Positions 1,927 through 63,154 of a stretch of 64,000 nucleotides of DNA are shown in pieces. The notes below the pieces were generated by a model. The model was not told where the DNA came from, searched no databases, and saw only the letters and a program-made list of their open reading frames with translations. Source of the stretch: Deltaproteobacteria bacterium (GTDB taxonomy: Bacteria; UBA10199; JADGCS01). Numbering within the stretch: the stretch's first letter is position 1; each line of letters begins with the position of its first letter. A program made the position numbers and the translations under genes. Location of the stretch: contig JADGCS010000006.1 of the NCBI GenBank assembly GCA_015228875.1, forward strand, positions 1 to 64,000. The letters are read 5' to 3'.

Positions 1927-2947
1927 TACCGACCTCATCATCAAAAAATCCCATGAGCTTGGGTTTGATGCTGTTGGCATTACCCGCGAGTTTGCGCCTG
2001 CACACCGCGATTATTTTCTGGACTGGCTTGACAAGGGCAGACACGCGGAGATGGACTGGCTTTACAAGAGCAGGGGGCTTAAGTTGAGTCCCGATCGGAT
2101 CATGAAAGGCACACGATCCGCGATTGTCCTTGCCGCATCGTATCACCACAAGGTTACCCGCAAGACCGCGTACGCCATTGCGCGATACGCGCGCGGGACA
2201 GATTATCATGGCTGGATCAAACAATGGCTCGAAGAACTGGCCGTGTATATTAAACAGCAGATCGCCCCCTCTTTTCAATGGCGGAGCTTTGTGGACACCG
2301 GCCCTGTTCTGGAGCGGGATCTCGCAGAAAAGGCGGGGCTTGGCTGGATTGGAAAAAACACCTGTCTCATCAACAAGGATCTTGGTTCGTATGTTTTTCT
2401 GGGCGTTATTTTTTGCAATCTTTTGTTTTGTGCCGAAACAAAAAAAGCAAAAAATCTGTGCGGTCAATGCGATTTGTGCGTTAAGGCATGCCCCACGGGG
2501 GCCCTCACACCGTTTAAACTCGATGCTGGTAAGTGCCTTGCGTATCACAACATTGAAAAAAGGGGCGAGAGGGCAAAGGCTGTCTGGAAACCTCTTCACA
2601 ACCGATTGGTGGGATGCGACATCTGTCAGGAGGTTTGTCCGCGCAACATCAGGGCCAGGGCCGGCAAAAATGTCCAGTGGCTCGAAGGATATGAAGAGAC
2701 ACACCTGGCGGATATTGCCGGATTTCTTGAGCTTGACAAGGGTGGCTACCAGAAAAAATTCAAACACACCGCTATCAGCCGCGTGAAATATCAGGATTTT
2801 ATGCGCAATGTGTTTATTGTGATTGCCAATTTAAAAAGAAAAGATTTGATTGAACAGGTGAAGGCGTGGAAGATAAGAAACCCCCATGAGGGGCTTGCAG
2901 AACTGGAGTTTTGTATTGGAGAACTCGAAAAAGAATATGAGGAGTGA
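1919..2947 (+). CDS. queG: Epoxyqueuosine reductase QueG
   Basis: 4Fe-4S motifs CGQCDLCVKACPTGAL and CDICQEVCPRN; GWIGKNTCLI. Confidence 0.92.
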   Translation: MTDTDLIIKKSHELGFDAVGITREFAPAHRDYFLDWLDKGRHAEMDWLYKSRGLKLSPDRIMKGTRSAIVLAASYHHKVTRKTAYAIARYARGTDYHGWIKQWLEELAVYIKQQIAPSFQWRSFVDTGPVLERDLAEKAGLGWIGKNTCLINKDLGSYVFLGVIFCNLLFCAETKKAKNLCGQCDLCVKACPTGALTPFKLDAGKCLAYHNIEKRGERAKAVWKPLHNRLVGCDICQEVCPRNIRARAGKNVQWLEGYEETHLADIAGFLELDKGGYQKKFKHTAISRVKYQDFMRNVFIVIANLKRKDLIEQVKAWKIRNPHEGLAELEFCIGELEKEYEE

Positions 2948-3798
2948 TGATGTATAAATTGAAGTCTAGCAATTTCAAAGTTGACAGAGCGCGGGTGCAT
3001 TCCTCGCAAAATGGAGGCATTCAATCGCGTCACAGTCAAGTGAGTAACTTGTATAGAACCTTGGAAGGTTTTTTCTACGCGTTTCGGCATCAATTTTTGC
3101 ATGGTGTCCGCCCGCGTAGTGTTTTCCGTTTTATGCGGGTTATGATTGTTGTGTGCCTCATGATGTTTGCCGTTATACCCGCCTGCCAGTCCGGGCGGGA
3201 ACCCCTGCCGGTGCTTGTCCCGCAGCAGATCGATGTGGCACAGGCATTACAGCGGGGTATTTTTAAACTTGTCATCGATGCCTCGATGATCAAGGTGAGG
3301 ACAATCAAGGACAGCAGCATCCCCGTGGCCGCGAGTTTTTATTTTAATTCGGGGGCCTTAAATCTCAATCCCGGGCGGTCTTTTTTTAAAACCGAGATTG
3401 ACATCACGAGCTTTTATTCGGGACTCTCGGTGAGGGACGATAACGTGCTCAAGGTTTTCTTTAAGACGGACGAGACCCCAAACAAGGCTGCCTTTTTTTC
3501 TGTGGCAGGCCTTGGGAAGGAAAAAACAGCAGGGTTAAAAACAGCGAAAAAACTGGACGAACTCTCTGTTGATGGGGTTCTCACATACAACCAGAAAGAG
3601 GTGATGGTTAAGGCAATCCTCAAGATCTCGTTTAACAAGTACGGGAGGCTTGTCGTTGAAACTGTCAAGCCGTTTGCAGTCAGCATTTCGGACCTTGGGT
3701 TAACCAAAAATTTAAACGAGCTGCTGGTGGTCTGCAATCATCAATCCGTGGATGACGTGGTTCAGGTTGAAGTCCATATCGAATTTGAACCTGGGTGA
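2947..3798 (+). CDS. YceI-like lipoprotein; N-terminus interrupted in frame by type I and type II repeats
   Basis: TGATG overlap with the queG stop; open frame through the repeats, then MRVMIVVCLMMFAVIPAC lipoprotein signal and a YceI-like body (VDGVLTYNQKEVMVKAIL). Confidence 0.65.
   Translation: MMYKLKSSNFKVDRARVHSSQNGGIQSRHSQVSNLYRTLEGFFYAFRHQFLHGVRPRSVFRFMRVMIVVCLMMFAVIPACQSGREPLPVLVPQQIDVAQALQRGIFKLVIDASMIKVRTIKDSSIPVAASFYFNSGALNLNPGRSFFKTEIDITSFYSGLSVRDDNVLKVFFKTDETPNKAAFFSVAGLGKEKTAGLKTAKKLDELSVDGVLTYNQKEVMVKAILKISFNKYGRLVVETVKPFAVSISDLGLTKNLNELLVVCNHQSVDDVVQVEVHIEFEPG
2971..3052 (+). repeat. Type I repeat, copy a
   Basis: AATTTCAAAGTTGACAGAGCGCGGGTGCATTCCTCGCAAAATGGAGGCATTCAATCGCGTCACAGTCAAGTGAGTAACTTGT. 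Confidence 0.9.
3053..3144 (+). repeat. Type II repeat, copy 1 (abuts type I copy a)
   Basis: TAGAACCTTGGAAGGTTTTTTCTACGCGTTTCGGCATCAATTTTTGCATGGTGTCCGCCCGCGTAGTGTTTTCCGTTTTATGCGGGTTATG. Confidence 0.9.
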
Positions 3799-4665: not shown

Positions 4666-5973
4666 TCAAAGGGAGTGTCTATTCCCCCCGTAGATCAACA
4701 CATCAACCTTGTCCCTGCTTGTAAAGAGGTCGATGATTTCTTTGGTCCCGCGGAGTTTAAATCCGACCATGTCTGCCCGATACCCTTCTTTGATCATGCC
4801 GACTTTTTTCAATCCGATCGCATGGCACGCATTTGTTGTGATCATCGGCAGGAATTCGAACAGATTTGTCTTGGGATGTCTTTTTAAAAAAAGCCGGGTT
4901 TCCTGCAGAAAATTGAGTGTGCTGTTGCTGGCGATGCTGTCGGTCCCAAGGGCTATCGGGATTTTATTTTCTTTGTATTTTTTAAACGGAAATGAGTCAT
5001 GCCCAAAAAAATCAAAAGAGCCCGGGCAGTGCACGACACAGATGTTTGGCCACGTGGCCATGATTTTTATATCTTTGCTGTCTGTGTAATTTGCGTGGAT
5101 GACGAGTGCGTGATGAAGGCTGTGTTTGTGATGGTGAATGAATTTAACAGCAGAGTCTGCTGCGTGCAGCGGGGATGTATGAATATCGGGCCTGAGGGCT
5201 GCAATAAAGAGCCACAGGGGGCCGGCGCGGTATTTAAAATAGTCACATTCCTCCCTTGATTCTGCAAGGTGCAGCGAGAGGGCCTTGTATTTTTTGCCAA
5301 GCACTGTTTTCAGCACCTCGGGTGACACGGCATGAACGGAATGCAGTGTCTGGTAAAAGGGGATCGGTGCATGCGTCAGGCTGTCCCTGATTTTACGCAA
5401 TGCAAATTGAGACATCTCGGTTCTGGTCCCGACAACCTCTCCGAAGCCAATGACCCTGACCTGGACATCATTGTAGTAAGAGAGCGGTGTATCAAAACTG
5501 ATGTGATCGATGATTGTGGTACAGCCGGACAAAAGGTTGAGCCTTATGCCGGTGCGTATGGCATTCTTGACCTCTACTTTGCGTTGACCCTGTTTTTTTT
5601 CAAGGAGGGTTTTGATCCACGGTACAAATTTTTTTTCTTTGAGAGGACCAAGATTTGTGAGTTCGAGATGGCAGTGTGCATTGACAAAACCTGGGAGGAG
5701 CACGGTGTCTTTAAGCACTAAGCTGGGCGTGTCTACGCGTTTCGGCATCAATTTTTGCATGGCGCCCGCCCGCGTTGTGTTTTCAGCTTTATGCGGGTTA
5801 AGGATGCGCGCATGACTGAGCGCCTTTTTGGGGATGTGTTCTGAAATTTTTGTGATCACCCCGTTTTCAATGATGATCAGTGCCGGGCTGATTATTTTTG
5901 TATTTTCGATTACGGCAGCAGAGGCGATGACCGCTATTTTTTTTTCCGCTTTATGCGGGTTATGAGATTTCAT
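4666..5973 (-). CDS. Amidohydrolase-family protein, candidate aminodeoxyfutalosine deaminase; carries an in-frame type II repeat
   Basis: LLPGFVNAHCHLELT, VVHCPGSFDFFG, PIALGTDSIASNSTLNFLQE; next to mqnC/mqnA. NPHKAENTTRAGAMQKLMPKRV is repeat-derived. Confidence 0.8.
   Translation of the reverse strand: MKSHNPHKAEKKIAVIASAAVIENTKIISPALIIIENGVITKISEHIPKKALSHARILNPHKAENTTRAGAMQKLMPKRVDTPSLVLKDTVLLPGFVNAHCHLELTNLGPLKEKKFVPWIKTLLEKKQGQRKVEVKNAIRTGIRLNLLSGCTTIIDHISFDTPLSYYNDVQVRVIGFGEVVGTRTEMSQFALRKIRDSLTHAPIPFYQTLHSVHAVSPEVLKTVLGKKYKALSLHLAESREECDYFKYRAGPLWLFIAALRPDIHTSPLHAADSAVKFIHHHKHSLHHALVIHANYTDSKDIKIMATWPNICVVHCPGSFDFFGHDSFPFKKYKENKIPIALGTDSIASNSTLNFLQETRLFLKRHPKTNLFEFLPMITTNACHAIGLKKVGMIKEGYRADMVGFKLRGTKEIIDLFTSRDKVDVLIYGGNRHSL
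5731..5801 (+). repeat. Type II repeat, copy 2, inside a CDS
   Basis: GTCTACGCGTTTCGGCATCAATTTTTGCATGGCGCCCGCCCGCGTTGTGTTTTCAGCTTTATGCGGGTTA; lacks the AACCTTGGAAGGTT hairpin. Confidence 0.9.
5944..5964 (+). repeat. Solo terminal hairpin of type II repeat at the mqnC/amidohydrolase junction
   Basis: TTCCGCTTTATGCGGGTTATG. Confidence 0.75.
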
Positions 5974-7045
5974 TATAAAAAGAATCCCGTTGATAAGGGA
6001 CACACCCTGATTTCTTTATGGCCCCTGCAAGATCCTCAGGTGTGAGATGCCCCGTGTTACTGCACCCTGCAAGACTGACCACATGCTCTTCGAGCATGAC
6101 CGAACCGATATCATCCGCCCCGTAGTGCAGGGCCATCTGCGCTGTTTTAATCCCCTGTGTGAGGCTGGATGCCTGAATGTGCTTAAAGTTGTCGAGGTAG
6201 AGACGGGCAATGGAAATGAGTTTTAAATAATCATACGGTGTGGACAGGATGACGTCCTCGTTGTTTTTTAATCGCGGGTGAAGCGCCGTGTTTTCGGGCT
6301 GAAATGTCCATGGTATAAACGAGATAAAACCCTGTGTCTTGTCCTGCAACTCCCTTAATTTTCTGAGATGTTCTATCCGGTCCGGCCACCTTTCGACATG
6401 ACCCATCATCATTGTCGCGGTGGTCTTTAAACCGAGTGTGTGGGCTGTCTGCATGACATCAAGCCACTGCGTGGCGGTACATTTGTTCATCGAGATGCGG
6501 TCGCGGATTTTGTCCACCAGTATTTCGGCCCCCCCGCCCGGGATGGAGGCAAGTCCCCTGTCCATCAGGCGATTAATGACCTCGCTGATACTTAAATGAG
6601 AGACCTGTGCTGCATGGTGAATCTCTGGAGGTGAAAAGGCGTGGATGTGAATTTTATGATGATTGTGAATATGCCCCACCAGGTTTTCCAGGTCGGTGAT
6701 GGTGTAATCGGGGTGATTCCCTCCCTGCAACAGAACCCTTGTGCCCCCTTTTTTAAGGGTGTCCATGATTTTTTTGTCAATCGCCTCGTAAGATATTTCA
6801 TAGGCCTCTTTGTGGCCCTTGGGTCTGTAAAATGCGCAGAAAAGGCATGTTGACTTGCAGATATTGGTGTAATTGATGTTCCGGTCGATCAGATAGGCAA
6901 CACGGTTTTTGTTTTGCGCCCTGTTTTTTTTGTCGGCGTATCCTGCCAGTTTAAGGATGTCCCCGTTTTCTGCCAGGGCGAGTGCCTCGTCTTCGGAGAG
7001 GCGTCCTCCTGCATCTGCTTTAAAATAAATATTGTCCAATGACAT
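5960..7045 (-). CDS. mqnC: Cyclic dehypoxanthinyl futalosine synthase MqnC (radical SAM)
   Basis: DRNINYTNICKSTCLFCAFYR (CxxxCxxC) and LLQGGNHPD; neighbour is mqnA. Confidence 0.88.
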   Translation of the reverse strand: MSLDNIYFKADAGGRLSEDEALALAENGDILKLAGYADKKNRAQNKNRVAYLIDRNINYTNICKSTCLFCAFYRPKGHKEAYEISYEAIDKKIMDTLKKGGTRVLLQGGNHPDYTITDLENLVGHIHNHHKIHIHAFSPPEIHHAAQVSHLSISEVINRLMDRGLASIPGGGAEILVDKIRDRISMNKCTATQWLDVMQTAHTLGLKTTATMMMGHVERWPDRIEHLRKLRELQDKTQGFISFIPWTFQPENTALHPRLKNNEDVILSTPYDYLKLISIARLYLDNFKHIQASSLTQGIKTAQMALHYGADDIGSVMLEEHVVSLAGCSNTGHLTPEDLAGAIKKSGCVPYQRDSFYNEIS

Positions 7046-7835: not shown

Positions 7836-7888
7836 AAGATTTCCTCCAAAAAAGTTTTTTATGATTAACCCTTACTCCAATATCCAGG

Positions 7889-7970
7889 AATTTCAAAGTT
7901 GACAGAACGCGGGTGCAGTCCTCGCAAAATGAAGGAATTCAACCGCGTCAAAGTCAAGTTAGTAACTTGA
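7889..7970 (+). repeat. Type I repeat, copy b
   Basis: AATTTCAAAGTTGACAGAACGCGGGTGCAGTCCTCGCAAAATGAAGGAATTCAACCGCGTCAAAGTCAAGTTAGTAACTTGA. Confidence 0.9.
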
Positions 7971-10763: not shown

Positions 10764-12017
10764 TTAATGGCACCCCCCAAGTGATTTAATCAAGCCCTTT
10801 GCGGTCTCGACGTCTTCTTTATACTCGTCTGGTTTTCGTTTTACAAATTCGCAGTAAACATTTGCGGCCTCCGAGTTTTTTCCCGTCAATTGGTACATTT
10901 GACCGAGGACAAAATAGGCGCGGTAGAAGGTGGCATCGAGCGTGATGGTTTTTTTGTACCACTCTGCGGCACTGCTGAAATTTTTAAGCTGCTGGTAGTT
11001 GTAGCCGATATTAAATGTGGCCTCGGGGTAGTTGGGTTTGAGGGTCACCGCCGATTGATAGGCCCTGTTGGATTCTTGATAGGCCTCGTGCGATTGCGCG
11101 CTGCTGCCTTTTTCACTGAGCATGCTGGCGAGCTTGTAATAAGAGTATCCAATATTAAAATAGGCAAGTTCATTTGTGGGATCATCGATAATCACCTTGT
11201 TGAATTCATTGATGGCCATTGTGATGTTGTCATCCTTTAAATAATTGAGACCCATGTTAAGATGGGCGTGCGACGAATCGGGGTTGGCGACAATGGAATG
11301 GTTGAGGGCCTGCTGCGCCTTAAGCGTTTGTCCGGTCTTTGTATAAAGCTCTGCAAGGTTGTTCCATGCCTCTGCGAGGTTGGGGTCGATTTCGAGCGCC
11401 AGCTTGTAACGGATGATGGCCTTTTCGTATTCACCCAGCCTGTGATACGCCATACCAAGTTGCATGTGTGCGTAAGGGTGGTCGCTGTTGATCTGTGTGG
11501 CTTTAACAAAACACGCGGCGGCATCACTTAAGTGATCGAGGTTTTTGTCCTGCTTGTACAGATCCACATGGACAAGCCCTGCATTGTAATGCGCATCGGA
11601 GTATTTGTTGTTGTATTTTAAGGCCAGACCAAACTGTCTGAGCGCTTCTTTGTGATTTTTTAATTTAAGATAAACAATCCCAAGATGATTGTATGTTGAT
11701 GGAAATTTTTTATCGAGACTGATGGCCCTTTTGAGAACAACGATGGCATCGTCAAAGCGTCCCTTGTGCTTGTAGGCAAGACCAAGGTTGCTTAAGGCCT
11801 CGACATATTTTGGGTTGAGCTCTGTGGCGATTTTAAATTCAAAGATCGCCCTGTCGATGTCCCCCTGATAGAGGGCTGTGACCCCCTTGTTGTTGTGCTG
11901 CACGGCCCTGTCCGAGGGTTTCTCCGCCTTTTTTGCAGAGACAGCATGAGGGATCAGGCATAGGATTAAAAACAACAGGGTCAGCATGGCGGCGGTTTTG
12001 TTATTTATGGTGTGCAT
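10764..12017 (-). CDS. Exported TPR-repeat protein
   Basis: Multiple TPRs (AYFNIGYSYYKLA..); signal peptide after MHTINNK. The upstream MQKLMPKRVEKTFQGS in the ORF track is type II repeat. Confidence 0.85.
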   Translation of the reverse strand: MHTINNKTAAMLTLLFLILCLIPHAVSAKKAEKPSDRAVQHNNKGVTALYQGDIDRAIFEFKIATELNPKYVEALSNLGLAYKHKGRFDDAIVVLKRAISLDKKFPSTYNHLGIVYLKLKNHKEALRQFGLALKYNNKYSDAHYNAGLVHVDLYKQDKNLDHLSDAAACFVKATQINSDHPYAHMQLGMAYHRLGEYEKAIIRYKLALEIDPNLAEAWNNLAELYTKTGQTLKAQQALNHSIVANPDSSHAHLNMGLNYLKDDNITMAINEFNKVIIDDPTNELAYFNIGYSYYKLASMLSEKGSSAQSHEAYQESNRAYQSAVTLKPNYPEATFNIGYNYQQLKNFSSAAEWYKKTITLDATFYRAYFVLGQMYQLTGKNSEAANVYCEFVKRKPDEYKEDVETAKGLIKSLGGCH

Positions 12018-12107
12018 AGAACCTTGGAAGGTTTTTTCTACGCGTTTCGGCATCAATTTTTGCATGGTGTCCGCCCGCGTAGTGTCTTCCGCTTTATGCG
12101 GGTTATG
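12018..12107 (+). repeat. Type II repeat, copy 4
   Basis: AGAACCTTGGAAGGTTTTTTCTACGCG..CGCGTAGTGTCTTCCGCTTTATGCGGGTTATG; fills the gap between the flanking genes. Confidence 0.92.
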
Positions 12108-18656: not shown

Positions 18657-18682
18657 GGCTCCTCGTTGTTTTTAAAGTTTTA

Positions 18683-18853
18683 AACCTAGAAGCGGCAGTT
18701 GAAGAATACAAGGCGACAGGAGATACGGGATTTAATTGGGTTCTACGCGACTTCCCGTGCTTCACCCGTTGGGTGAGCAATTTTGACTCTCCGAACCCAA
18801 TTAAATCCCGTATCTCCTGTCGCTTAGCATGGTTCAATTGCCGTTTGTAGGTT
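18683..18853. repeat. Type IV long-stem hairpin element, copy A
   Basis: Perfect 31 bp arms 18713-18743 / 18793-18823 (GCGACAGGAGATACGGGATTTAATTGGGTTC); imperfect extension outward to AACCTA/TAGGTT. Confidence 0.85.
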
Positions 18854-20006
18854 AAAAACAATCGAGATACCTTGCAATCACCAGGCGCTGGATTTCTGAT
18901 GTGCCTTCGCCGATGTCCAGTAGTTTTTGATCGCGGTAGTATTTTGCCGCGGGGTATTCTTCCATTAAGCCGTAGCCGCCGTGGAGCTGCACGCAGTGAT
19001 TGGCGACCCTGTAAAACACCTCAGAGCAATACACCTTGGACATCGCGGCCTCTTTAGAGAACGCGCGGCCCTGATCCTTAAGCCAGCAGGCCCTGTAAAG
19101 AAGGCTGCGGGCGGCCTCGATCTCGGTGGCGCAGTCCACAAGTTTAAAGGCATTAATCTGAAAGGACGAGATAGGTTTTCCAAAGGCGATTCTTTCTTTT
19201 GAATATTTTAAGGCCTCTTCGAAGGCCCCCTGTGCGCCGCCAAGCCCCATCGCGGCAATCGCAAGACGCCCGCTGTCCAAGGTTTGAAGCATCTGTTTAA
19301 AACCGTCACCGCGTTTTCCCAACAGATTACCTTCGGGGACGGTGACATCATCAAAGTAAAGCTCGGCGGTATTTGATGATCTCCAGGTCATCTTGTTTTT
19401 CATGGCCTTGGCTGTGAGTCCCTTGCAGCTTTGCTCTGCGATGATGCAGGATATTTCTTTTTTACCGTTGTCTTTTGTGTCTGTAATAGCCTGCACGGTG
19501 ACACCCGCGCTCATCTCGTTGGCAGAGTTTGTGATAAAAATTTTTGACCCGTTGATGATCCATTGACCATCTTTTAAAATCGCGTTGGTCTTTGAGTTGC
19601 CGGCATCAGAACCCGCGTTGGGCTCGGTGAGTCCAAACCCCCACAGTTTTTTTTCGGAACACAGGGGAGGCAGGTATTTTTCCTTCTGTTCTTTGCTGCC
19701 AAAGTAATACAGCGGGCCAATTCCCAGAGAATTGCCCGCGGCCACCGTTGCCGCCTGACACCCGTCGATCCTTGCGAGTTCTTCCACAACAATAATGTAA
19801 GACAGATAATCCATCCCCTGCCCGCCGTATTCTGGGGAACAGGTGACCCCAAAGAGCCCAAGGTCAAACATTTTGCCGGTGAGTTCGTATGAAAATTCCT
19901 CTTTGCGGTCGAGTTCGAGCCTCACTGGTTTGATTTCCTTTTCGGCAAAATCACGGACGGTGTTTTTTAAAAGCATTTGTTCGGGGGTAAGGTCATAATT
20001 TGGCAT
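18852..20006 (-). CDS. Acyl-CoA dehydrogenase
   Basis: GFGLTEPNAGSDAGN, SQ/YRDQKLLDIGEGTSEIQRLVIAR. Confidence 0.93.
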   Translation of the reverse strand: MPNYDLTPEQMLLKNTVRDFAEKEIKPVRLELDRKEEFSYELTGKMFDLGLFGVTCSPEYGGQGMDYLSYIIVVEELARIDGCQAATVAAGNSLGIGPLYYFGSKEQKEKYLPPLCSEKKLWGFGLTEPNAGSDAGNSKTNAILKDGQWIINGSKIFITNSANEMSAGVTVQAITDTKDNGKKEISCIIAEQSCKGLTAKAMKNKMTWRSSNTAELYFDDVTVPEGNLLGKRGDGFKQMLQTLDSGRLAIAAMGLGGAQGAFEEALKYSKERIAFGKPISSFQINAFKLVDCATEIEAARSLLYRACWLKDQGRAFSKEAAMSKVYCSEVFYRVANHCVQLHGGYGLMEEYPAAKYYRDQKLLDIGEGTSEIQRLVIARYLDCF

Positions 20007-23322: not shown

Positions 23323-23474
23323 GTGTCTGTCGGGAAAGCCCCTGTTTCGCAGGAGTCCTTAAAAATCATGTCCCGTGGAAAAATATACGGACATGATTTT
23401 TAAGGGTTTGAAATATTTTGCAAGCGGCAAAATTTTCAAACTTCCGGAGAAACAGGGGCTTTCCCGATAGACAC
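23323..23474 (-). repeat. Type V cruciform element, copy D
   Basis: Outer arms GTGTCTGTCGGGAAAGCCCCTGTTTC / GAAACAGGGGCTTTCCCGATAGACAC with two internal hairpins. Confidence 0.9.
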
Positions 23475-25852: not shown

Positions 25853-25889
25853 AGATCCCCCCCGTGCAGGCGCCCCTTGATGTATAGGC

Positions 25890-25996
25890 ATTTCAAAGTC
25901 GACAGGGCGCGGGTGCATTCCTCGCAGAATGGAGAAATTCAATCGCGTACCCCAAGGGCATTTCCTTCGGGCATCAAAGTCAAGTTAGTAACTTGT
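25890..25996 (+). repeat. Type I repeat, copy d, with one nested hairpin
   Basis: ATTTCAAAGTCGACAGGGCGCGGGTGCATTCCTCGCAGAATGGAG..; CCCCAAGGGCATTTCCTTCGGGCAT nested; ends CAAGTTAGTAACTTGT. Confidence 0.9.
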
Positions 25997-26043
25997 CTGC
26001 AGGTCTTTCTATTGTAGCATAAACAGGGGCATTGGCAAGGGGT

Positions 26044-26133
26044 AGAACCTTGGAAGGTTTTTTTTACGCGTTTCGGCATCAATTTTTGCATGGTGTCCGC
26101 CCGCGTAGTATTTTCAGCTTTATGCGGGTTATG
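26044..26133 (+). repeat. Type II repeat, copy 5
   Basis: AGAACCTTGGAAGGTTTTTTTTACGCGTTTCGGCATC..CGCGTAGTATTTTCAGCTTTATGCGGGTTATG. Confidence 0.9.
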
Positions 26134-29975: not shown

Positions 29976-30034
29976 ACGTCATAAATCAACGTAATTGTGC
30001 AAAAACTGACGTCAGTTTTAATTTAATGCATAGG

Positions 30035-30116
30035 AATTTCAAAGTCGACAGAGCGCGGGTGCATATCTCGCAAGATGGAGGCATTCAACCGCGTCATAGT
30101 CAAGTTAGTAACTTGT
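30035..30116 (+). repeat. Type I repeat, copy e
   Basis: AATTTCAAAGTCGACAGAGCGCGGGTGCATATCTCGCAAGATGGAGGCATTCAACCGCGTCATAGTCAAGTTAGTAACTTGT. Confidence 0.9.
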
Positions 30117-31966: not shown

Positions 31967-31984
31967 CTGTTAAAATGCATTCTT

Positions 31985-32025
31985 GACTCTCCGAACCCAA
32001 TTAAATCCCGTGTCTCCTGTTGCCT
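31985..32025 (+). repeat. Solo right arm of type IV element
   Basis: GACTCTCCGAACCCAATTAAATCCCGTGTCTCCTGTTGCC matches the right arm of copy A. Confidence 0.8.
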
Positions 32026-32128
32026 TGCGCAGTCCCACAGTCGCATTTGGGGTTCAGTTCATGTCTACACACGTCCTGCAGTTTGGATCAGTTGCGGAAC
32101 TAAAGGTGCAGCCGCAGGTTTGCGAGGT

Positions 32129-32689: not shown

Positions 32690-32736
32690 AAAGCCTCTCT
32701 GGTTAATTTTGCCTTCGCAGTCAAAGCACAGTGGGT

Positions 32737-32843
32737 GGCAGGAGATGCTGGATTTAATTGAGTTCTACGCGACTTCCCGTGCGTCACTTGTTTGTTGCGC
32801 AACTCTGACTCTCCGAACTTAATTAAATCCAGCCTCTCCTGCC
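32737..32843. repeat. Type IV long-stem hairpin element, copy B
   Basis: 29 bp arms GGCAGGAGATGCTGGATTTAATTGAGTTC / GAACTTAATTAAATCCAGCCTCTCCTGCC; loop TACGCGACTTCCCGTGC...TGACTCTCC shared with copy A. Confidence 0.85.
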
Positions 32844-32935
32844 TGTTTATCGTGTCGCCGTTTTTTGGTTAATGGTTATCGCACAATAATAACGGCGGCC
32901 CTGCCTCATGGAACAGTTGAGAAAAAAATTCAACC

Positions 32936-41461: not shown

Positions 41462-41502
41462 GATTTTTGCATGACTATTCAACCAAAATAAGATATCGGG
41501 TT

Positions 41503-41654
41503 GGGGCCTGTCGGACAGCACCTGTTTCTCCGGAAGTTTGAAAATTTTGCCGCTTGCAAAATATTTCAAACCCTGAAAAATCATGTCTTTACATTTTGTC
41601 ACGGGACATGATTTTTCAGGACTCCTCCGAAACAGGTTCTGTCCGACAGGCCCC
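41503..41654 (+). repeat. Type V cruciform element, copy E
   Basis: Outer arms GGGGCCTGTCGGACAGCACCTGTTTC / GAAACAGGTTCTGTCCGACAGGCCCC; inner hairpins GTTTGAAAATTTTGC..GCAAAATATTTCAAAC and CCTGAAAAATCATGTC..GACATGATTTTTCAGG. Confidence 0.92.
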
Positions 41655-41702
41655 TAGCTTAGTCCAGGCCCGCCAATCATATAAAATAAAAAAGGGGTGT
41701 GT

Positions 41703-43400: not shown

Positions 43401-43484
43401 ACAAGTTACTAACTTGACTTTGACGCGGTTGAGTCCCCCCGTTGTGCGAGGAATGCACCCGCGCTCTGTCAATTTTAAAATTCC
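43401..43484 (-). repeat. Type I repeat, copy f
   Basis: ACAAGTTACTAACTTGACTTTGACGCGGTTGAGTCCCCCCGTTGTGCGAGGAATGCACCCGCGCTCTGTCAATTTTAAAATT. Confidence 0.9.
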
Positions 43485-43499
43485 TATACACGGACTTAT

Positions 43500-45285: not shown

Positions 45286-46816
45286 TATTATGAATGCCAT
45301 AGTGAGGTTCAAAAAAGTTCTAATGTCTAGGAATTTTAAAGTTGACAGAGCGCGGGTGCATGCCTCGCATAACGGAGGAATTCGACCGCGTAAGAGTCAA
45401 GTTAGTAACTTGTTGCTCACCCTGTCTCTGGCAATATTGCTACAGGGTTTCTTTGTTGATGCCTTTGCCTTCGAAGGGGAGAGTCCTGCCTTAAAAGAAA
45501 AATGGCAGATAGGCGTTGACGCGATCATGCAACCCGCGATCGAGGCAAAAAGGCTTGTCGGTGCCGTTGTGGGGATCATCACACCCGAGGGGATGGCCGT
45601 GTACGGGTATGGGGCTACAAAACTTAATGGCAAAGATGTCCCTGATGGCGATACCGTTTTTTACATCGCGTCAATTACAAAGACGGTTACGTCCCTTGTC
45701 CTTGCACAGATGGCTGAAAATAAAGACCTTAAACTCACCGACCCCGTGGCAAAATTTTTGCCGCAGGGTGTGACAGTTCCTCATTACAAAGGCAGGGAGA
45801 TCACACTACTTGATTTATCAACACACCATTCGGGATTGCCCTTGATGCCGTCAAACTTTGATCTTTCAAATCCCGTAAAGTCCTTCAAGGCTTATGATAC
45901 AAAAATGCTTTATGATTTTTTATCGGACCACAAACTCAAATACATGCCAGGGACACGGTACGAGTACAGCAATTTGGGAGCAGGGCTTTTGGGGCACGTG
46001 CTTTCGCTTAAAAGCGGCAAAACCTACGAGGATCTTGTGACCGATCTTGTGCTTAAACCCCTTAAAATGCACGACACAGGGCAATCACGCAATAAGATCA
46101 AAAACACACTCGTCACAGGTTACGACTGGGACCTGCAAAAAAGGGTGCCTTGGCCGGATAAGGTGATCCTCGAAGGCGCGGGGGCCCTCTATTCAACGGC
46201 GCATGACATGTTAAGATATCTTGGCGCCAACATGGGATTCATTGATTCCCCACTGGGCAAGGCCATGCAGATCACGCATGTGCCGAAAAAAAAGGCCCAA
46301 GCAAAATCCATCGGTCTCGGGTGGTTTATCAGCGATCATCAGGGACAGACGCTTGTCTGGCACAATGGGGACACACCGAGTTGCAGTTCTTGGGCGGGTT
46401 TTATCAAATCAAAAAACACTGGTGTGGTTGTCCTTGCCAATACATCGACACTCTTTAACGGGATTATTGATGATGCGGGCCTTAACGTGGTGAGTCTGCT
46501 GCTTGGACGATCCTACAAACCCTTTATATTTCCGGAAGAGGTAAAGATAAAATCGGGATTGTTAAAGGAGTACTCAGGCGAGTACAGGTCGCAGGACGCG
46601 AAAAAGACCGTGCAGATCAAACCACAGGCAGGCGGGCTGTGGGTGGTGTTTTCAAAAAATGAGAGCATCAGGTTTTATGCCGCATCAGAGACCTCATTTT
46701 TTTCCAAGCTCAATCTGACAAACCTTGTCTTTAAAAGAGACAACCTTGGGACCGTCTCCCGTTTAATTTTTAACACTTATGATGGCGACGAAGCAGAATA
46801 CCGGAGAGCAAGATAA
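45263..46816 (+). CDS. Serine hydrolase, beta-lactamase/PBP family, with type I repeat read through in the signal-peptide region
   Basis: SITKTVTSLVLAQ (SxxK), YEYSNLGAGLLGHVL (YxN), HNGDTPSCSSWAGF. Start may be 45290 (MNAIVRFKKVL). Confidence 0.88.
   Translation: MFHPLSINIMNAIVRFKKVLMSRNFKVDRARVHASHNGGIRPRKSQVSNLLLTLSLAILLQGFFVDAFAFEGESPALKEKWQIGVDAIMQPAIEAKRLVGAVVGIITPEGMAVYGYGATKLNGKDVPDGDTVFYIASITKTVTSLVLAQMAENKDLKLTDPVAKFLPQGVTVPHYKGREITLLDLSTHHSGLPLMPSNFDLSNPVKSFKAYDTKMLYDFLSDHKLKYMPGTRYEYSNLGAGLLGHVLSLKSGKTYEDLVTDLVLKPLKMHDTGQSRNKIKNTLVTGYDWDLQKRVPWPDKVILEGAGALYSTAHDMLRYLGANMGFIDSPLGKAMQITHVPKKKAQAKSIGLGWFISDHQGQTLVWHNGDTPSCSSWAGFIKSKNTGVVVLANTSTLFNGIIDDAGLNVVSLLLGRSYKPFIFPEEVKIKSGLLKEYSGEYRSQDAKKTVQIKPQAGGLWVVFSKNESIRFYAASETSFFSKLNLTNLVFKRDNLGTVSRLIFNTYDGDEAEYRRAR
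45330..45412 (+). repeat. Type I repeat, copy g, inside a CDS
   Basis: GAATTTTAAAGTTGACAGAGCGCGGGTGCATGCCTCGCATAACGGAGGAATTCGACCGCGTAAGAGTCAAGTTAGTAACTTGT. Confidence 0.92.
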
Positions 46817-46869
46817 AAGAGGGCATCAGCGTTTTACGAGGGGCCAGACCGCGTTGTTATCTGCTATCG

Positions 46870-47029
46870 CCTAGGAGCCTGTCGGACAACTCCTGTTTCT
46901 CCGGAAGTTTGAAAATTTTGCCGCTTGCAAAATATTTCAAACCCTGAAAAATCATGTCTTTACGTTTTGTCACGGGACATGATTTTTCAGGACTCCTCCG
47001 AAACAGGAGTTGTCCGACAGGCTCCTAGG
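46870..47029 (+). repeat. Type V cruciform element, copy F
   Basis: CCTAGGAGCCTGTCGGACAACTCCTGTTTC / GAAACAGGAGTTGTCCGACAGGCTCCTAGG outer arms; interior nearly identical to copy E. Confidence 0.93.
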
Positions 47030-47034
47030 GCGGT

Positions 47035-49023
47035 TCAATTGCTTTTTTTGGGTTCGAGCATTTCCAGAATCTGCTGTATCTTCTTTTTTGTCTCGGGGTT
47101 GTTGGGGTTGATTTCGAGTGCGTGATTAAAATCGTCAAGGGCCTCTTTGGGTCTTTTAAGACGCAGAAGGGCCCCGCCTCTCTTTATATAACTGTCTTCG
47201 TGATTTGGGTTGGCAATCACATAACGGCTTAAATCTGTGATGGCGTTTTGGAAATCCAGGATGCCGAGGTAAGTCATGGCCCTGTTGTAAAAAGGGGGCG
47301 TAAAGTTTGGATCCAACTGTATGGCTGTAGTGAAATCAGTGATGGCAGATTGAAACTGTTTGAGTCTTCTCAAGACATTCCCCCTGTTGTTGTAGCCCTT
47401 GGCGTGCGCAGGTTGCATCGAGAGGAGCGTGTTGTAATCGTTAAGGGCCTCTACGTTTTTATTGAGGGCGTAATGGGTGGTCCCCCTGTTGAAGTAAGCC
47501 TTTGCAAGTTGCGGATTTATTTTTATGGCCTCTGTATAATCCTGAACGGCTTCATCATATTTGCCCTGCATGTGAAACACAGCACCCCTGTTAAGACGGG
47601 CGAATTCGTTCTCAGGTCTGAGTGTCACAGCCTTGTTAAGATCGTTGAGGGCCTCGTTGAGCCGGCCCATCTCAATCAGCTCTTTGCCCCTGTTGTTGTA
47701 GGCCCTGCCCTCGGACTGTGTTATTGCAATGCAGTGATCCCACAAGCTGAGGTTGGTTTTCCATACCGGAACCTGCACCAGGGAAGTTCTCAGTGCCAAC
47801 AGGCCAATTACCAACACAGGGATGGACCAGACTGCTTGTTTGTTGATGTGCCTTACCATACAGGAAAGAAATAAAGAGATGCCCGCCATTGAAAAATAAA
47901 AGTAGCGGTCGGCCACTGTAGACCACTCTTGAAATCCAAAGATTACAAGACCCGAGACGGGCAAAAACCCAGCCACAATCATTGTGAGGGCTGTCAGAAA
48001 CCAGGGCTGCTTTTTTCTCAATAAAAGGGCCGCTGTGCCAAACAGCACGGGGATCACCCACTCGATAAAGAACCACCATTCCAAAATGAGCGTGTGTGGC
48101 TTTCGTGCATAGGTTGCGGCAAGTGTGAGCGGGTTGATGACCTTTAAGAGATAAAAATTCACGGCGTCCATAAAGATCAACGGCCGCGCCCACAGTGGGC
48201 TTTGCACCTGAATGGCTACATCAGGTTGATTTAAGTTTGTGGTGATGAGTACAGGGACAAGAATGATAACAAAGGGGAGGGTCTTGATGAGGGATTTTTT
48301 AAAACCACTGCAAAGGACCACAAAAAAAATGACAAACACCGTCAGGGGCAGGCCCGCCATGATGGGTTTTGAGAGGATTGCAGGGATAAAGACCGCGAGG
48401 GCCACAACGTAGCTGGCCTTGGTATTTTTTACCAGGAGGTTGACCAGAATCAGTCCAAAGAATGTCCCTGTCAGTCCTCCGAGATTTGAAACATAACAGA
48501 CAGCCTCTGTCTGCAGCGGGTGGACAAGAAACAACAGCGTGCCAAAGAGCGCGGCCCCCTTGTGTCTTGTCATGCGAAATAGAAAACAGAAGAGCAGCAG
48601 TCCGTTTGATATGTGAATGCCCAGATTAAACAGGTGAAAATAAAACGGATCATATGTCCCACCGCCGAGCATCTTAAGGAGATACCAGATGAGATAGGGG
48701 ACAAACATAAACATGTCTGTCGTGGCTGCCTGAGAGATATTACTGACCGACAGTTGACTGATGTTAAAATTTTCAAAGAACCGCCACGGGTCATCCCAGA
48801 CAAACTCAAAAGCCATGGTTTGTCCAAAGACAGCGAGGGGGAGCAGGATCAACGTGATCAGACATAACCAGTTGGTTGGCGATTGTAAAAAACAAGTTAC
48901 TAACCTGACTGTGACGCGGTTGCATTCCGCCGTCTTGCGAGGAATGCACCCGCGCTCTGTCGACTTTGAAATTTCTATACATCCAGTTGCCGGGGGTGAG
49001 GGGGTTATAGATTTATGCTCCAT
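47035..49023 (-). CDS. GT-C/TMTC-like polytopic membrane protein with TPRs; type I repeat within the N-terminal ORF extension
   Basis: FEFVWDDPWRFFENF, many TMs, then multiple TPRs (AYNNRGKELIEMGRLNEALNDLNKAVTLRPEN). Confidence 0.85.
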   Translation of the reverse strand: MEHKSITPSPPATGCIEISKSTERGCIPRKTAECNRVTVRLVTCFLQSPTNWLCLITLILLPLAVFGQTMAFEFVWDDPWRFFENFNISQLSVSNISQAATTDMFMFVPYLIWYLLKMLGGGTYDPFYFHLFNLGIHISNGLLLFCFLFRMTRHKGAALFGTLLFLVHPLQTEAVCYVSNLGGLTGTFFGLILVNLLVKNTKASYVVALAVFIPAILSKPIMAGLPLTVFVIFFVVLCSGFKKSLIKTLPFVIILVPVLITTNLNQPDVAIQVQSPLWARPLIFMDAVNFYLLKVINPLTLAATYARKPHTLILEWWFFIEWVIPVLFGTAALLLRKKQPWFLTALTMIVAGFLPVSGLVIFGFQEWSTVADRYFYFSMAGISLFLSCMVRHINKQAVWSIPVLVIGLLALRTSLVQVPVWKTNLSLWDHCIAITQSEGRAYNNRGKELIEMGRLNEALNDLNKAVTLRPENEFARLNRGAVFHMQGKYDEAVQDYTEAIKINPQLAKAYFNRGTTHYALNKNVEALNDYNTLLSMQPAHAKGYNNRGNVLRRLKQFQSAITDFTTAIQLDPNFTPPFYNRAMTYLGILDFQNAITDLSRYVIANPNHEDSYIKRGGALLRLKRPKEALDDFNHALEINPNNPETKKKIQQILEMLEPKKSN
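48892..48975 (-). repeat. Type I repeat, copy h, overlapping the annotated CDS N-terminus
   Basis: ACAAGTTACTAACCTGACTGTGACGCGGTTGCATTCCGCCGTCTTGCGAGGAATGCACCCGCGCTCTGTCGACTTTGAAATTTC. Confidence 0.9.
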
Positions 49024-53282: not shown

Positions 53283-53601
53283 TTGAGAATTTTATTTTGA
53301 CAGGCCGCGTGTGATTGATGCACCTGTTTGGATTAAAATCAGGTGTCTCCCCGCAGAGGGGCCTCTTTGGCGCCCGACGCGGGTTGTGGAAATTAACCGC
53401 GAGAAGTCAAGTTGCCGATTTTTTTTTTGGCCGGCAACGCTACTGATCGCAAAATAACGCCAGTCATCAAAAATCGGGAGCGGAATCTAACAAAAAAAAA
53501 CGGTGTTTAGCAAGAGAAAAATTAAAAAAAAATCGTACACGATGGTGTCATCAAGTAAATCTGCGGGGATGTTTTTTTGTATCACTTGGCAAAGTGTTGA
53601 T

Positions 53602-53686
53602 TTTAAAGCCTTAGCACTTCGATTCGCAAATACGGTAACGTAATTTGACTACCATTGAATTAAATTTTTGCTCACTCAGTACTTAG
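53602..53686 (+). repeat. Palindromic direct repeat X, copy 1; overlaps the stop codon of the downstream ArsA-like gene
   Basis: CCTTAGCACTTCGATTCGCAAATACGGTAACGTAATTTGACTACCATTGAATTAAATTTTTGCTCACTCAGTACTTAG. Confidence 0.88.
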
Positions 53687-54798
53687 CTGTCCAACCAACC
53701 CATGACGTCGGCAACCATCTTCAGAGTCTTGATGTCGTGAACATCCGAGAGAAAGAGGGGGATAGTGCTTACATAATCGTTTCCAACAGAGTTGGTGATG
53801 GATGTGATCTGCCTCTTGTCTTTTTTGATCATGGGGACAAACAACCTGTAGTTATCGATGAGCAGATCAGCTTCGGCAGGTGAAAACTGCCCGACAAGCT
53901 CGTCCCTGCAGCTTTTTATTTTTTCGGGTGACAAAACATTTCCCTCATACACCCTGTTGATGATGATTTTTTTTAAGTTAAATCCCTGGTCGGAAATCTG
54001 CTTGAAGAAATCCTGTGTTTCCATGATGGAATTGGCGTTTGTGGTGCAGACGATCACAAAGTGTGTGGTGTCGAGTTTAAGCAGCGAGTTGACTTCGGAT
54101 GCCCTTGTTTCAAAGCCGCCCAGCAGATCTTTAAAGGCGACAATCATCTCGGACATTTCTTGAAGAAAGGCAAAACCCGTGATGCGGTCAAAGGCCTTGA
54201 GGATCTGCTGCGAACCTCTTTCAAGAAACTTGAGTCCTGATTTGCCGAGTGACAGTGAGGGCTTGAGCAACAGATGCAGCATCGAGTTGTTGATCATGTT
54301 CATCATTCTCTGAGGCGCACTTAAAAAATCCCTGGCATTTTGTACGGGAGGGGTGTCGACAATCATGACGTCAAATGTGTTTTGTTTGTAAATTTCGTAC
54401 AGCCTTTCCATGGCCATGTATTCCTGCGTGCCGGCGAGCATCTGCGACATGTGCTGATAAAGTTTGTTGTTGATGATTTTGTTTCTGGTTTCTGCGGATG
54501 AGGCGTATTTTTCGATGATGCGGTCGAAGGTTCTCTTGGTGTCGAGCATCATGGCCCACATCTCACCCCCGTTGTTTTCGGGGAGTGTTATTTTTTCCGG
54601 TTCGTCGGAGAGGCTTTTGATCCCCAGAGAATCGGCGAGCCTTTTTGCGGGATCAATGGTCAACACAATGGTCTTGTATCCTGCGAGGCTCATTTTAAGC
54701 CCCATGGCGGCTGCGATGGTTGTTTTTCCAACACCGCCGCTGCCGCAGACGAGCAGAACTCTGGTTTCCCTATGATGATCCGGATTGAGAGTATTCAC
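53683..54798 (-). CDS. ArsA/Get3-family ATPase, GSGGVGKT type
   Basis: VLLVCGSGGVGKTTIAAAMGLKMSLAGYKTIVLTIDPAKRLADSLGI; VMIVDTPPVQNARDFLSAP. Confidence 0.88.
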   Translation of the reverse strand: MNTLNPDHHRETRVLLVCGSGGVGKTTIAAAMGLKMSLAGYKTIVLTIDPAKRLADSLGIKSLSDEPEKITLPENNGGEMWAMMLDTKRTFDRIIEKYASSAETRNKIINNKLYQHMSQMLAGTQEYMAMERLYEIYKQNTFDVMIVDTPPVQNARDFLSAPQRMMNMINNSMLHLLLKPSLSLGKSGLKFLERGSQQILKAFDRITGFAFLQEMSEMIVAFKDLLGGFETRASEVNSLLKLDTTHFVIVCTTNANSIMETQDFFKQISDQGFNLKKIIINRVYEGNVLSPEKIKSCRDELVGQFSPAEADLLIDNYRLFVPMIKKDKRQITSITNSVGNDYVSTIPLFLSDVHDIKTLKMVADVMGWLDS

Positions 54799-55718
54799 GA
54801 GGAACCCTCCGTCAACAAGTGAAGGAGCGGTATCAGTCCCCGGTAGTCCCTGATTTCATTGAATTGGAAAGGCAGAACGATCTTTTTAAAATCGGGGAAA
54901 AACTCGTTGATTTTTTTGATGTAGATCTGGTTGAGTTTGGCCCTTTCGACGGCAAGGTTGTGATAGTTTTTGATCGTGTTGATCCCGGACTCTGTTGATG
55001 GGATACTGCGGCTCAGGGATTTTATTTCCGGCATGACGGCATTGACAAACAGCGGGCCAAAATTAAGGTTGGTGCGCTCTTTAAGGGCGTTGATGTATTC
55101 TCTTGATTCGTTAACAGGCATTTCTTCGGCAAGGGTGACCAGGCAGAAGATGGTCTTTTTTTTGTCGGCCAGCATGTTTAGTATGTCAGTTGCGTGACTG
55201 TTGAGTGGACCAATCTTGACGGCAGATCTGAGGACCCTGGGGACTTCAAGCGTGGAGAGTCCATGACCTGTGGCTGGCGCATCCACTATGACGAGATCGT
55301 AGGTGCGTTGTGCCATAAGCTTGTTTTTGTATTGCCGTTCCAAATCGTATATTTTGCCGAGCATCAGGATATCGTTTAAGCCCGGAATGGCGTCCAGAAA
55401 ATTGCTGACGAACTTGTTGTTGAAGAAGGCCTGGTAAAGCGCCTTGAAATGGAGGCGTTTGAGTACGTATTCTTCGAAGCATTTGTTTGGTGACAGGTTG
55501 ATGCCGGAGATGTAGGGGGCGAGCGAGATTTCTTCCTGCCCGTTGCTCGATGTGTTGAACAGGGGGGCAATAAGACCTGATGAATTCATTTCTACAATGA
55601 GGGTGCGTTTTTTTTTCTTGGCGGCAAAGAGGGCAAGCAGCATCGCTGTGGTTGTTTTGCCAACACCGCCTTTCCCGGAGACAAAGACGAGTCTGTGATC
55701 AAGTATTTCGGAAAGCAT
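54795..55718 (-). CDS. ArsA/Get3-family ATPase, KGGVGKT type
   Basis: RLVFVSGKGGVGKTTTAMLLALFAAKKKKRTLIVEMNSSG; VIVDAPATGHGLSTLEVPRVL; overlaps the next gene by 4 nt. Confidence 0.9.
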   Translation of the reverse strand: MLSEILDHRLVFVSGKGGVGKTTTAMLLALFAAKKKKRTLIVEMNSSGLIAPLFNTSSNGQEEISLAPYISGINLSPNKCFEEYVLKRLHFKALYQAFFNNKFVSNFLDAIPGLNDILMLGKIYDLERQYKNKLMAQRTYDLVIVDAPATGHGLSTLEVPRVLRSAVKIGPLNSHATDILNMLADKKKTIFCLVTLAEEMPVNESREYINALKERTNLNFGPLFVNAVMPEIKSLSRSIPSTESGINTIKNYHNLAVERAKLNQIYIKKINEFFPDFKKIVLPFQFNEIRDYRGLIPLLHLLTEGSS

Positions 55719-55728
55719 AAATCTGTCT

Positions 55729-55813
55729 TTTAAGTCCTTAGTACTTCGATTCGCAAATACGGTAACGTAATTTGATTACCATTGAATTAAATTTTTGCTC
55801 ACTCAGTACTGAG
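55729..55813 (+). repeat. Palindromic direct repeat X, copy 2
   Basis: CCTTAGTACTTCGATTCGCAAATACGGTAACGTAATTTGATTACCATTGAATTAAATTTTTGCTCACTCAGTACTGAG. Confidence 0.88.
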
Positions 55814-58523: not shown

Positions 58524-58663
58524 CATAACCCGCATAAAGCGGAGTGCATTGCGATCAAACATGAAGGGTTTCATGTTTGGCGCTATGCGCCAGACACTAC
58601 GCGGGCGGACACCATGCAAAAATTGATGCCGAAACGCGTAGAAAAAACCTTCCAAGGTTATAA
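58524..58663 (-). repeat. Type II repeat, copy 7, with nested type III module; starts right after the GspC-like stop
   Basis: CATAACCCGCATAAAGCGGAGTGCATTGCGATCAAACATGAAGGGTTTCATGTTTGGCGCTATGCGCCAGACACTACGCGGGCGGACACC..CGCGTAGAAAAAACCTTCCAAGGTTAT. Confidence 0.92.
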
Positions 58664-62896: not shown

Positions 62897-62906
62897 TTTA
62901 TTGTCC

Positions 62907-63072
62907 AGAACCTTGGAAGGTTTTTTCTACGCGCCGGGGTCTGGCGCATAGCGCCGGACATGAAATCATTCATGTCCGATCGCAATGCACCCCGCGTAGT
63001 GTCTGGCGCATAGCGCCAAACATGAAACCCTTCATGTTTGATCGCAATGCACTCCGCTTTATGCGGGTTATG
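62907..63072 (+). repeat. Type II repeat, copy 8, carrying two type III modules
   Basis: GGCGCATAGCGCC-GGACATGAAATCATTCATGTCC-GATCGCAATGCAC inside the CTACGCG..CGCGTAG loop, and GGCGCATAGCGCC-AAACATGAAACCCTTCATGTTT-GATCGCAATGCAC before CCGCTTTATGCGG. Confidence 0.92.
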
Positions 63073-63154
63073 AATTTCAAAGTCGACAGAGCGCGGGTGC
63101 AGTCCTCGCATGACGAAGGGACTCAATCGCATAAAAGTCAAGCTGGTAATTTGT
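63072..63154 (+). repeat. Type I repeat, copy i (abuts type II copy 8)
   Basis: GAATTTCAAAGTCGACAGAGCGCGGGTGCAGTCCTCGCATGACGAAGGGACTCAATCGCATAAAAGTCAAGCTGGTAATTTGT. Confidence 0.88.

Follow-up and report, generated by a model that had tools for sequence, protein, structure and literature searches.

A dispersed palindromic repeat lying in frame in an amidohydrolase gene and in other unrelated genes of a 4.6-Mb bacterial genome

Introduction

Rickettsia palindromic elements (RPEs) are repeats of 100-150 bp that lie in frame in unrelated genes of Rickettsia and are reported to be solvent-exposed in the proteins that contain them (PMC2229807, PMC10969869, PMC3767692). Their description originates with Ogata et al. 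2000, cited here only as far as these three articles relay it. Wolbachia palindromic elements (WPEs) are likewise protein-coding palindromic repeats, in another host, according to PMC3767692. In-frame protein-coding repeats have so far mostly been viewed as a peculiarity of the reduced, intracellular Rickettsiales, Wolbachia included; a 2024 review considered a similar process conceivable in other prokaryotes (PMC10969869). A literature search, whose coverage mostly left out subscription papers, returned comparable cases only for Rickettsia, Wolbachia, and the ERIC, Correia, and Yersinia elements.

Here we describe a repeat, the type II element, found within an amidohydrolase gene in a 64,000-nt stretch of DNA (the window). 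The repeat is dispersed, is inserted in frame relative to orthologues, shows a strong phase bias, and resides in genes that look functional. We consider it very probable (about 0.87) that the block in the amidohydrolase gene is a copy of a dispersed, non-autonomous selfish hairpin repeat, one frame of which (R0) encodes a tolerated hydrophilic peptide; that this peptide is translated, that the repeat is mobilised in trans, and that the peptide lies at the protein surface as passive baggage are inferences.

Results and Discussion

The amidohydrolase gene and its insert

The amidohydrolase gene lies directly downstream of mqnC (Table 1). Its best profile match was PRK08418 with 138 bits, under the equivalog cut-off of that profile, and a PF01979 match spans 340 residues. 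The minus-strand ORF reads ...SHARILNPHKAENTTRAGAMQKLMPKRVDTPSLVLKDTVLLPGFVNAHCHLELT... and is stop-free across the repeat. An earlier note, made from the letters alone, had placed a type II repeat in frame within this coding sequence; the open frame and the membership of the block in a dispersed family bear this out, and the phenomenon is larger than was claimed. The limits proposed then, 5731-5801, are too narrow, as the element runs 18 nt further, to about 5713. Similarly, the roughly 25 residues described as exactly the translation of the repeat are so only approximately (AGA vs ADT, and DTPS vs EKTF or EKHC).

An alternative left hairpin (AAGCACT...AGTGCTT) is found in few copies, the amidohydrolase copy among them. 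This rarer hairpin, AAGCACTAAGC..., recurs in loci L097, L109, and L152; because the variant is shared with other loci, the amidohydrolase copy reaches about 5713, and the residues SLVL are largely element-derived. The second arm of this left hairpin has been replaced in the amidohydrolase copy, with the reading frame still kept. The family is palindromic, as the earlier note had it; with an arm replaced, this copy is a weaker palindrome (fold z -1.6, against -3.2 for the consensus-like copy at 12014-12107).

Decay of the gene, which would have undermined the reading of an in-frame insertion, was also checked. The amidohydrolase motifs HCH, H, H, and GTDS are all intact; judged by these motifs and the PF01979 match, the gene is no obvious pseudogene, and its activity is inferred. 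The block sits just before the LLPGF segment, a position known from the sequence. The predicted structure of the protein with its insert (pLDDT 40, from a three-sequence AlphaFold input) was too poor for locating the block.

A solo right-end module (family D8) lies across the mqnC stop, at the mqnC/amidohydrolase junction. A minus-strand TAA within it is the mqnC stop codon, and in another frame the module gives the residues HNPHKA close to the amidohydrolase N-terminus. Together with the main insert, the amidohydrolase gene thus holds two pieces of one repeat family.

Table 1. Positions of genes and repeats in the window.
Feature	Position	Strand	Details
Amidohydrolase gene carrying the insert	4666..6003	-	aminofutalosine-deaminase-like, PF01979; PRK08418; structures 3v7p, 7lkj
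mqnC (cyclic dehypoxanthinyl futalosine synthase)	5960..7045	-	TIGR03699 432.6 bits, cut-off 428.1
Type II element, short form (87 nt, 29 codons), frame R0	5713..5799	-	residues 69-97 NPHKAENTTRAGAMQKLMPKRVDTPSLVL; ends uncertain, ~3 nt
Left terminal module, variant AAGCACTAAGC	5713..5739	+	second arm diverged (TGGGCGTGT replacing AGTGCTTTT)
Right terminal module CAGCTTTATGCGGGTTAAG	5784..5802	+	consensus CCGCTTTATGCGGGTTATG
Solo right-end module CCGCTTTATGCGGGTTATG	5946..5964 (within 5942-5969)	+	across mqnC stop
Type II element, near-consensus	3054..3144 (repeat match 3050-3144)	-	
Type II element, near-consensus	12017..12107 (repeat match 12013-12107)	-	at start of TPR-protein ORF
Type II element, near-consensus	26043..26133 (repeat match 26039-26133)	-	
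Type II element, long form	58524..58663 (repeat match 58594-58663)	+	48-nt extra hairpin module
Mosaic of type II modules	62903-63154		left hairpin, two long modules, right end, then type I element directly
Type I copies	2955-3052, 7873-7970, 25873-25970, 30019-30116, 43401-43490, 45316-45413, 48892-48981, 63057-63154		
Third repeat, ~132-164 nt	23333-23464, 41494-41657, 46865-47028		own inverted repeat: 46870-46915/46984-47029
Fourth repeat family, containing GACTCTCCGAACCCAATTAAATCC	18677-18859, 31977-32054, 32717-32850		partly a 67-nt inverted pair, 18677-18743/18793-18859
86-nt direct repeat	53601-53686, 55728-55813		94% alike; flanks ORFs 53683-54798 and 54795-55718

The type II repeat family

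The genome (4.58 Mb in 228 contigs, contamination estimate 4.6%) contains 115 matches to the 27-nt core CGCGTTTCGGCATCAATTTTTGCATGG with at most three mismatches; the reversed control had none, which excludes chance. Elsewhere in the genome, the closest copies share 92-96% identity across some 70 nt. The consensus rests on 106 non-redundant copies, taken from surrounding stretches that total 1.24 Mb. These stretches were picked around copies, and the densities in them are therefore not genome averages.

On the + strand of the repeat, the consensus is TAGAACCTTGGAAGGTTTTTTCTACGCGTTTCGGCATCAATTTTTGCATGGTGTCCGCCCGCGTAGTGTTTTCCGCTTTATGCGGGTTATG. It contains three hairpins (AACCTT/AAGGTT, CTACGCG/CGCGTAG, and CCGC/GCGG), and the folding of the consensus-like copy in the window is that of a hairpin-rich RNA. 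Copies are either 87 or 135 nt long, each length being divisible by three, and the difference is a 48-nt hairpin module. The module architectures were ABD (55), ABCD (23), A alone (26), and D alone (19); modules occur solo and in other orders, which makes the family a mosaic. Three phases are open through the element: R0, F1, and F2. R0, HNPHKAENTTRADTMQKLMPKRVEKTFQG, is the frame that would be translated, giving an insert of 29 or 45 residues. The R0 peptide is hydrophilic (GRAVY -1.5), whereas the F1 peptide is hydrophobic (+0.8).

The core was absent from all 45 of the other genomes of the phylum that were searched, which argues for recent spread. Neither phage nor plasmid sequences nor IMG/VR gave a match for the element, and searches of Rfam, Pfam, PHROGs, PDB, and NCBIfam returned no matches for the element or its peptides.

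The element's right end, GGGTTATG, may give a start codon before a signal-peptide-like sequence in two ORFs, a secretin (L129:11162-13105:+) and a putative lipoprotein (window 2944-3798).

Comparison with orthologues

The block is absent in 17 of 17 aligned homologues of the amidohydrolase from relatives, which supports its proposed insertion into a pre-existing gene. The amidohydrolase from a genome of the same family (G001) reads HIPKKA-EN-MIMLDDMLLLPGF, where the protein in the window reads HIPKKALSHARIL-[29 residues]-KDTVLLPGF. No close strain with an empty site was available in this comparison; the nearest relative's amidohydrolase is 43% identical.

Other interrupted proteins gave corresponding gaps. 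In OppD, the orthologues of all six relatives are exactly 29 residues shorter at the site, with the flanks aligned (..KKEARLNAIPGVVP.. vs ..KSAKYL-[29]-KSIPGAVP..), and LysS of the nearest relative has 29 residues fewer. The ComEC proteins of relatives are without the 45-residue form, give or take a few residues, and the Mfd comparison fits the insert length to within one residue; for IspE, a clean alignment at the insertion site was not obtained. Orthologue gaps of 29 or about 45 residues imply that the net insertion is 87 nt in the short form and, with the same limits, 135 nt in the long form.

These comparisons bear on two other accounts of the block: misassembly, or a loop native to the amidohydrolase of this lineage whose likeness to the repeat is coincidental. 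Only a single genome of the genus entered the comparison, and it is fragmented into 228 contigs; yet the core has 114 other copies, homologues are without the block, and about 20 genes, spread over different contigs, contain the insert in phase and are present on both sides of it. We regard chance resemblance and misassembly as negligible.

Host genes and reading phase

We counted a copy as lying inside an ORF if there were at least 60 codons on either side of the element and at least 200 codons in total. By this criterion, R0 accounted for 19 copies and F1 for three; F2 had none. The ratio of R0 to F1 and F2 combined, 19 to 3, would have a binomial p of about 4e-7 if the three open frames were equally tolerated. 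Copies deep inside genes make up about one fifth of all type II copies, and within genes the element is almost always in one orientation. The absence of stops in the coding copies was excluded as evidence because these copies had been chosen stop-free. As a control independent of the stops in the element, we removed the element and tested the flanks of 102 copies for a long ORF in six phases. The flanks joined into a long ORF without the element in 19 cases for R0, none for R1, one for R2, two for F0, four for F1, and one for F2. On inspection, the apparently disrupted genes in phase F0 (L118 and L105) proved to be gaps between neighbouring genes and were rejected.

The control also speaks to the possibility that host proteins are normal because the inserts are eliminated ahead of or in the course of protein synthesis, whether by RNA splicing, by ribosomes bypassing the hairpins, or by protein splicing. 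A hairpin-rich RNA (z -3.2 in the consensus-like copy) would suit such a process, and the near-uniform orientation within genes is what a strand-specific RNA mechanism would require. However, splicing and ribosome bypassing are both indifferent to phase, and the scarcity of insertions in R1 (none) and R2 (one), against 19 in R0, argues against them. Moreover, the net length of both forms is a multiple of three, the element has no Rfam match, and it is far too short for an intein. Removal of the inserts thus appears very improbable.

The interrupted proteins include LysS, Mfd, IspE, ComEC, OppD, a FabD-like acyltransferase, a relative of MTA/SAH-nucleosidase, a radical-SAM/DUF2344 protein, a relative of Rsm22, an ArsP permease, a protein kinase, and a glycosyltransferase. 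OppD, with its 51-codon tail, just misses the strict threshold. Several of these proteins keep family matches on either side of the insert; gene calls were ORF-based and are firm only for those with family matches. LysS, the bacterial-type lysyl-tRNA synthetase, is present in a single copy (615 bits), the remaining matches being other synthetases. LysS is essential elsewhere; if it is essential here and no class I enzyme exists, the single copy should work with its insert, although its function is inferred. Both convincing F1 cases are membrane-type proteins, and we infer from the hydrophobicity of the F1 peptide that an insert in this frame may be easier to bear in such proteins.

In the mechanism that we propose, a hairpin-rich mobile repeat of about 87 or 135 nt would insert within and between genes, mobilised by a transposase acting in trans. 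Copies landing in phase R0 would be translated as an insert of 29 or 45 residues that the host protein tolerates. In-gene copies in other phases would be removed by selection, whereas those in R0 would survive, the peptide presumably being carried as passive baggage at the surface of the protein.

Alternatively, the peptide or the mRNA hairpins may have been adopted for a function (as a binding or localisation tag, or in regulation), and the in-gene copies kept because they are helpful. The number of R0 coding copies is somewhat above the random-frame expectation: 0.109 of random points in the same stretches, or about 11-12 per 106 points, against the 19 observed. The copies are also well conserved; however, conservation is equally high outside genes, the host genes have no common theme, and the amidohydrolase copy lost half a hairpin while keeping its frame. 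Selection on the peptide was sought as an excess of synonymous changes and not found in the coding copies, where 12 of the 48 changes were synonymous against an expectation of 23.5%; with few changes in 13 short-form copies, this is a weak test. We therefore consider adoption unlikely, though less so than removal of the inserts, and retain a tolerated selfish repeat as the preferred reading.

Mobility

Over 104 copies, no offset had matching flanks beyond chance, as a target-site duplication would produce. A TA duplication would suit the net length of 87 nt; it was rejected, as the left and right dinucleotides vary independently. The genome has ten Y1 transposase matches. Element ends were not present as a rule at the eight Y1 loci examined; only one (L157) has clear modules, and these are more than 1 kb off. 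With no target duplication and, among the Y1 loci examined, no transposase tied to the element ends, transposition is inferred from dispersal alone.

The type II element resembles the bacterial MITEs ERIC, Correia/NEMIS, YPAL, and RU-3, which are likewise short, non-autonomous, and hairpin-forming, and some of which contribute open frames fused to genes (PMC2229807, PMC10969869). Most such MITEs are marked by terminal inverted repeats, by TA ends, or by duplication of the target (PMC2229807). When compared for terminal inverted repeats, the ends of the type II element are just AACC... and ...GGTT; it differs from these MITEs in having no detected target duplications and in the share of copies deep in genes. 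With the REP/BIME mosaics, mobilised by Y1 transposases (RAYT), it has in common small palindromic units, the lack of target duplication, and the presence of Y1 genes in the genome. In contrast, REPs are mainly extragenic, and the examined Y1 loci are not flanked by the type II element.

Comparison with Rickettsia palindromic elements

Like RPEs, and RPE-1 to -3 above all, the type II element is a dispersed palindromic repeat with one open frame that is found in frame within numerous unrelated genes, apparently functional ones, and also between genes. Features of an RPE are seen in its 115 copies of 87 or 135 nt with their hairpins, and in the in-frame insertion that is absent from orthologues; the function of the products is inferred from their intact families. 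The RPE-like behaviour suggested for the amidohydrolase block therefore extends to about 20 unrelated genes, all with the element in the same frame, and the element is absent wherever orthologues could be aligned.

The differences anticipated by the earlier note, an unrelated sequence and another lineage, are also supported. The peptides have no NCBIfam match, and a search of the genome with the RPE1 model (TIGR01045) gave no hit; some RPE families are without a model. That the host is not Rickettsia is inferred from the genome size, mqnC, and the aminofutalosine-deaminase-like gene, that is, from genes of the futalosine pathway. In addition, the basic unit is shorter (87 nt) and comes in two lengths an in-frame 48-nt hairpin module apart, and the element is a mosaic of exchangeable hairpins, with three separate hairpins where an RPE has a single long stem-loop. 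RPE-like behaviour without a match to RPE1 or NCBIfam indicates that the type II element works like an RPE and is not itself one.

It is quite possible, though short of even odds, that the element represents an independently evolved class of protein-coding palindromic repeat in a large-genome bacterium far from the Rickettsiales. Selection would then have shaped it (multiple-of-three lengths, a hydrophilic open frame, in-frame hairpin swaps) to invade genes, even essential ones, without killing the host. An unrelated case of similar scale in a 4.6-Mb genome implies that genome decay is not a prerequisite for the phenomenon. The approximately 20 natural insertion experiments, with one peptide in many proteins and a clear frame contrast, make the question of adaptation for tolerance directly testable.

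Other repeat families

A second dispersed family, type I, is about 85-112 nt long, and 131 copies were counted in 1.24 Mb. Its copies frequently adjoin a type II element, with GGTTATG followed by AATTTCAAAGT. We rejected type I as an equally strong invader of proteins: only 13 ORF-spanning cases were found among the 131 copies, in mixed frames. A membrane-type protein (L128:8807-10669:+) contains type I (QVTNLTLTRLNASILRGMHPRSVNFEIP) plus a long type II insert, both in frame, and a large ORF (L127:3338-7762:-) contains two tandem type I-like units in frame. The window also holds a third repeat, whose three copies are about 90% alike and occur in both orientations, a fourth family, and a direct repeat that flanks two ORFs (Table 1).
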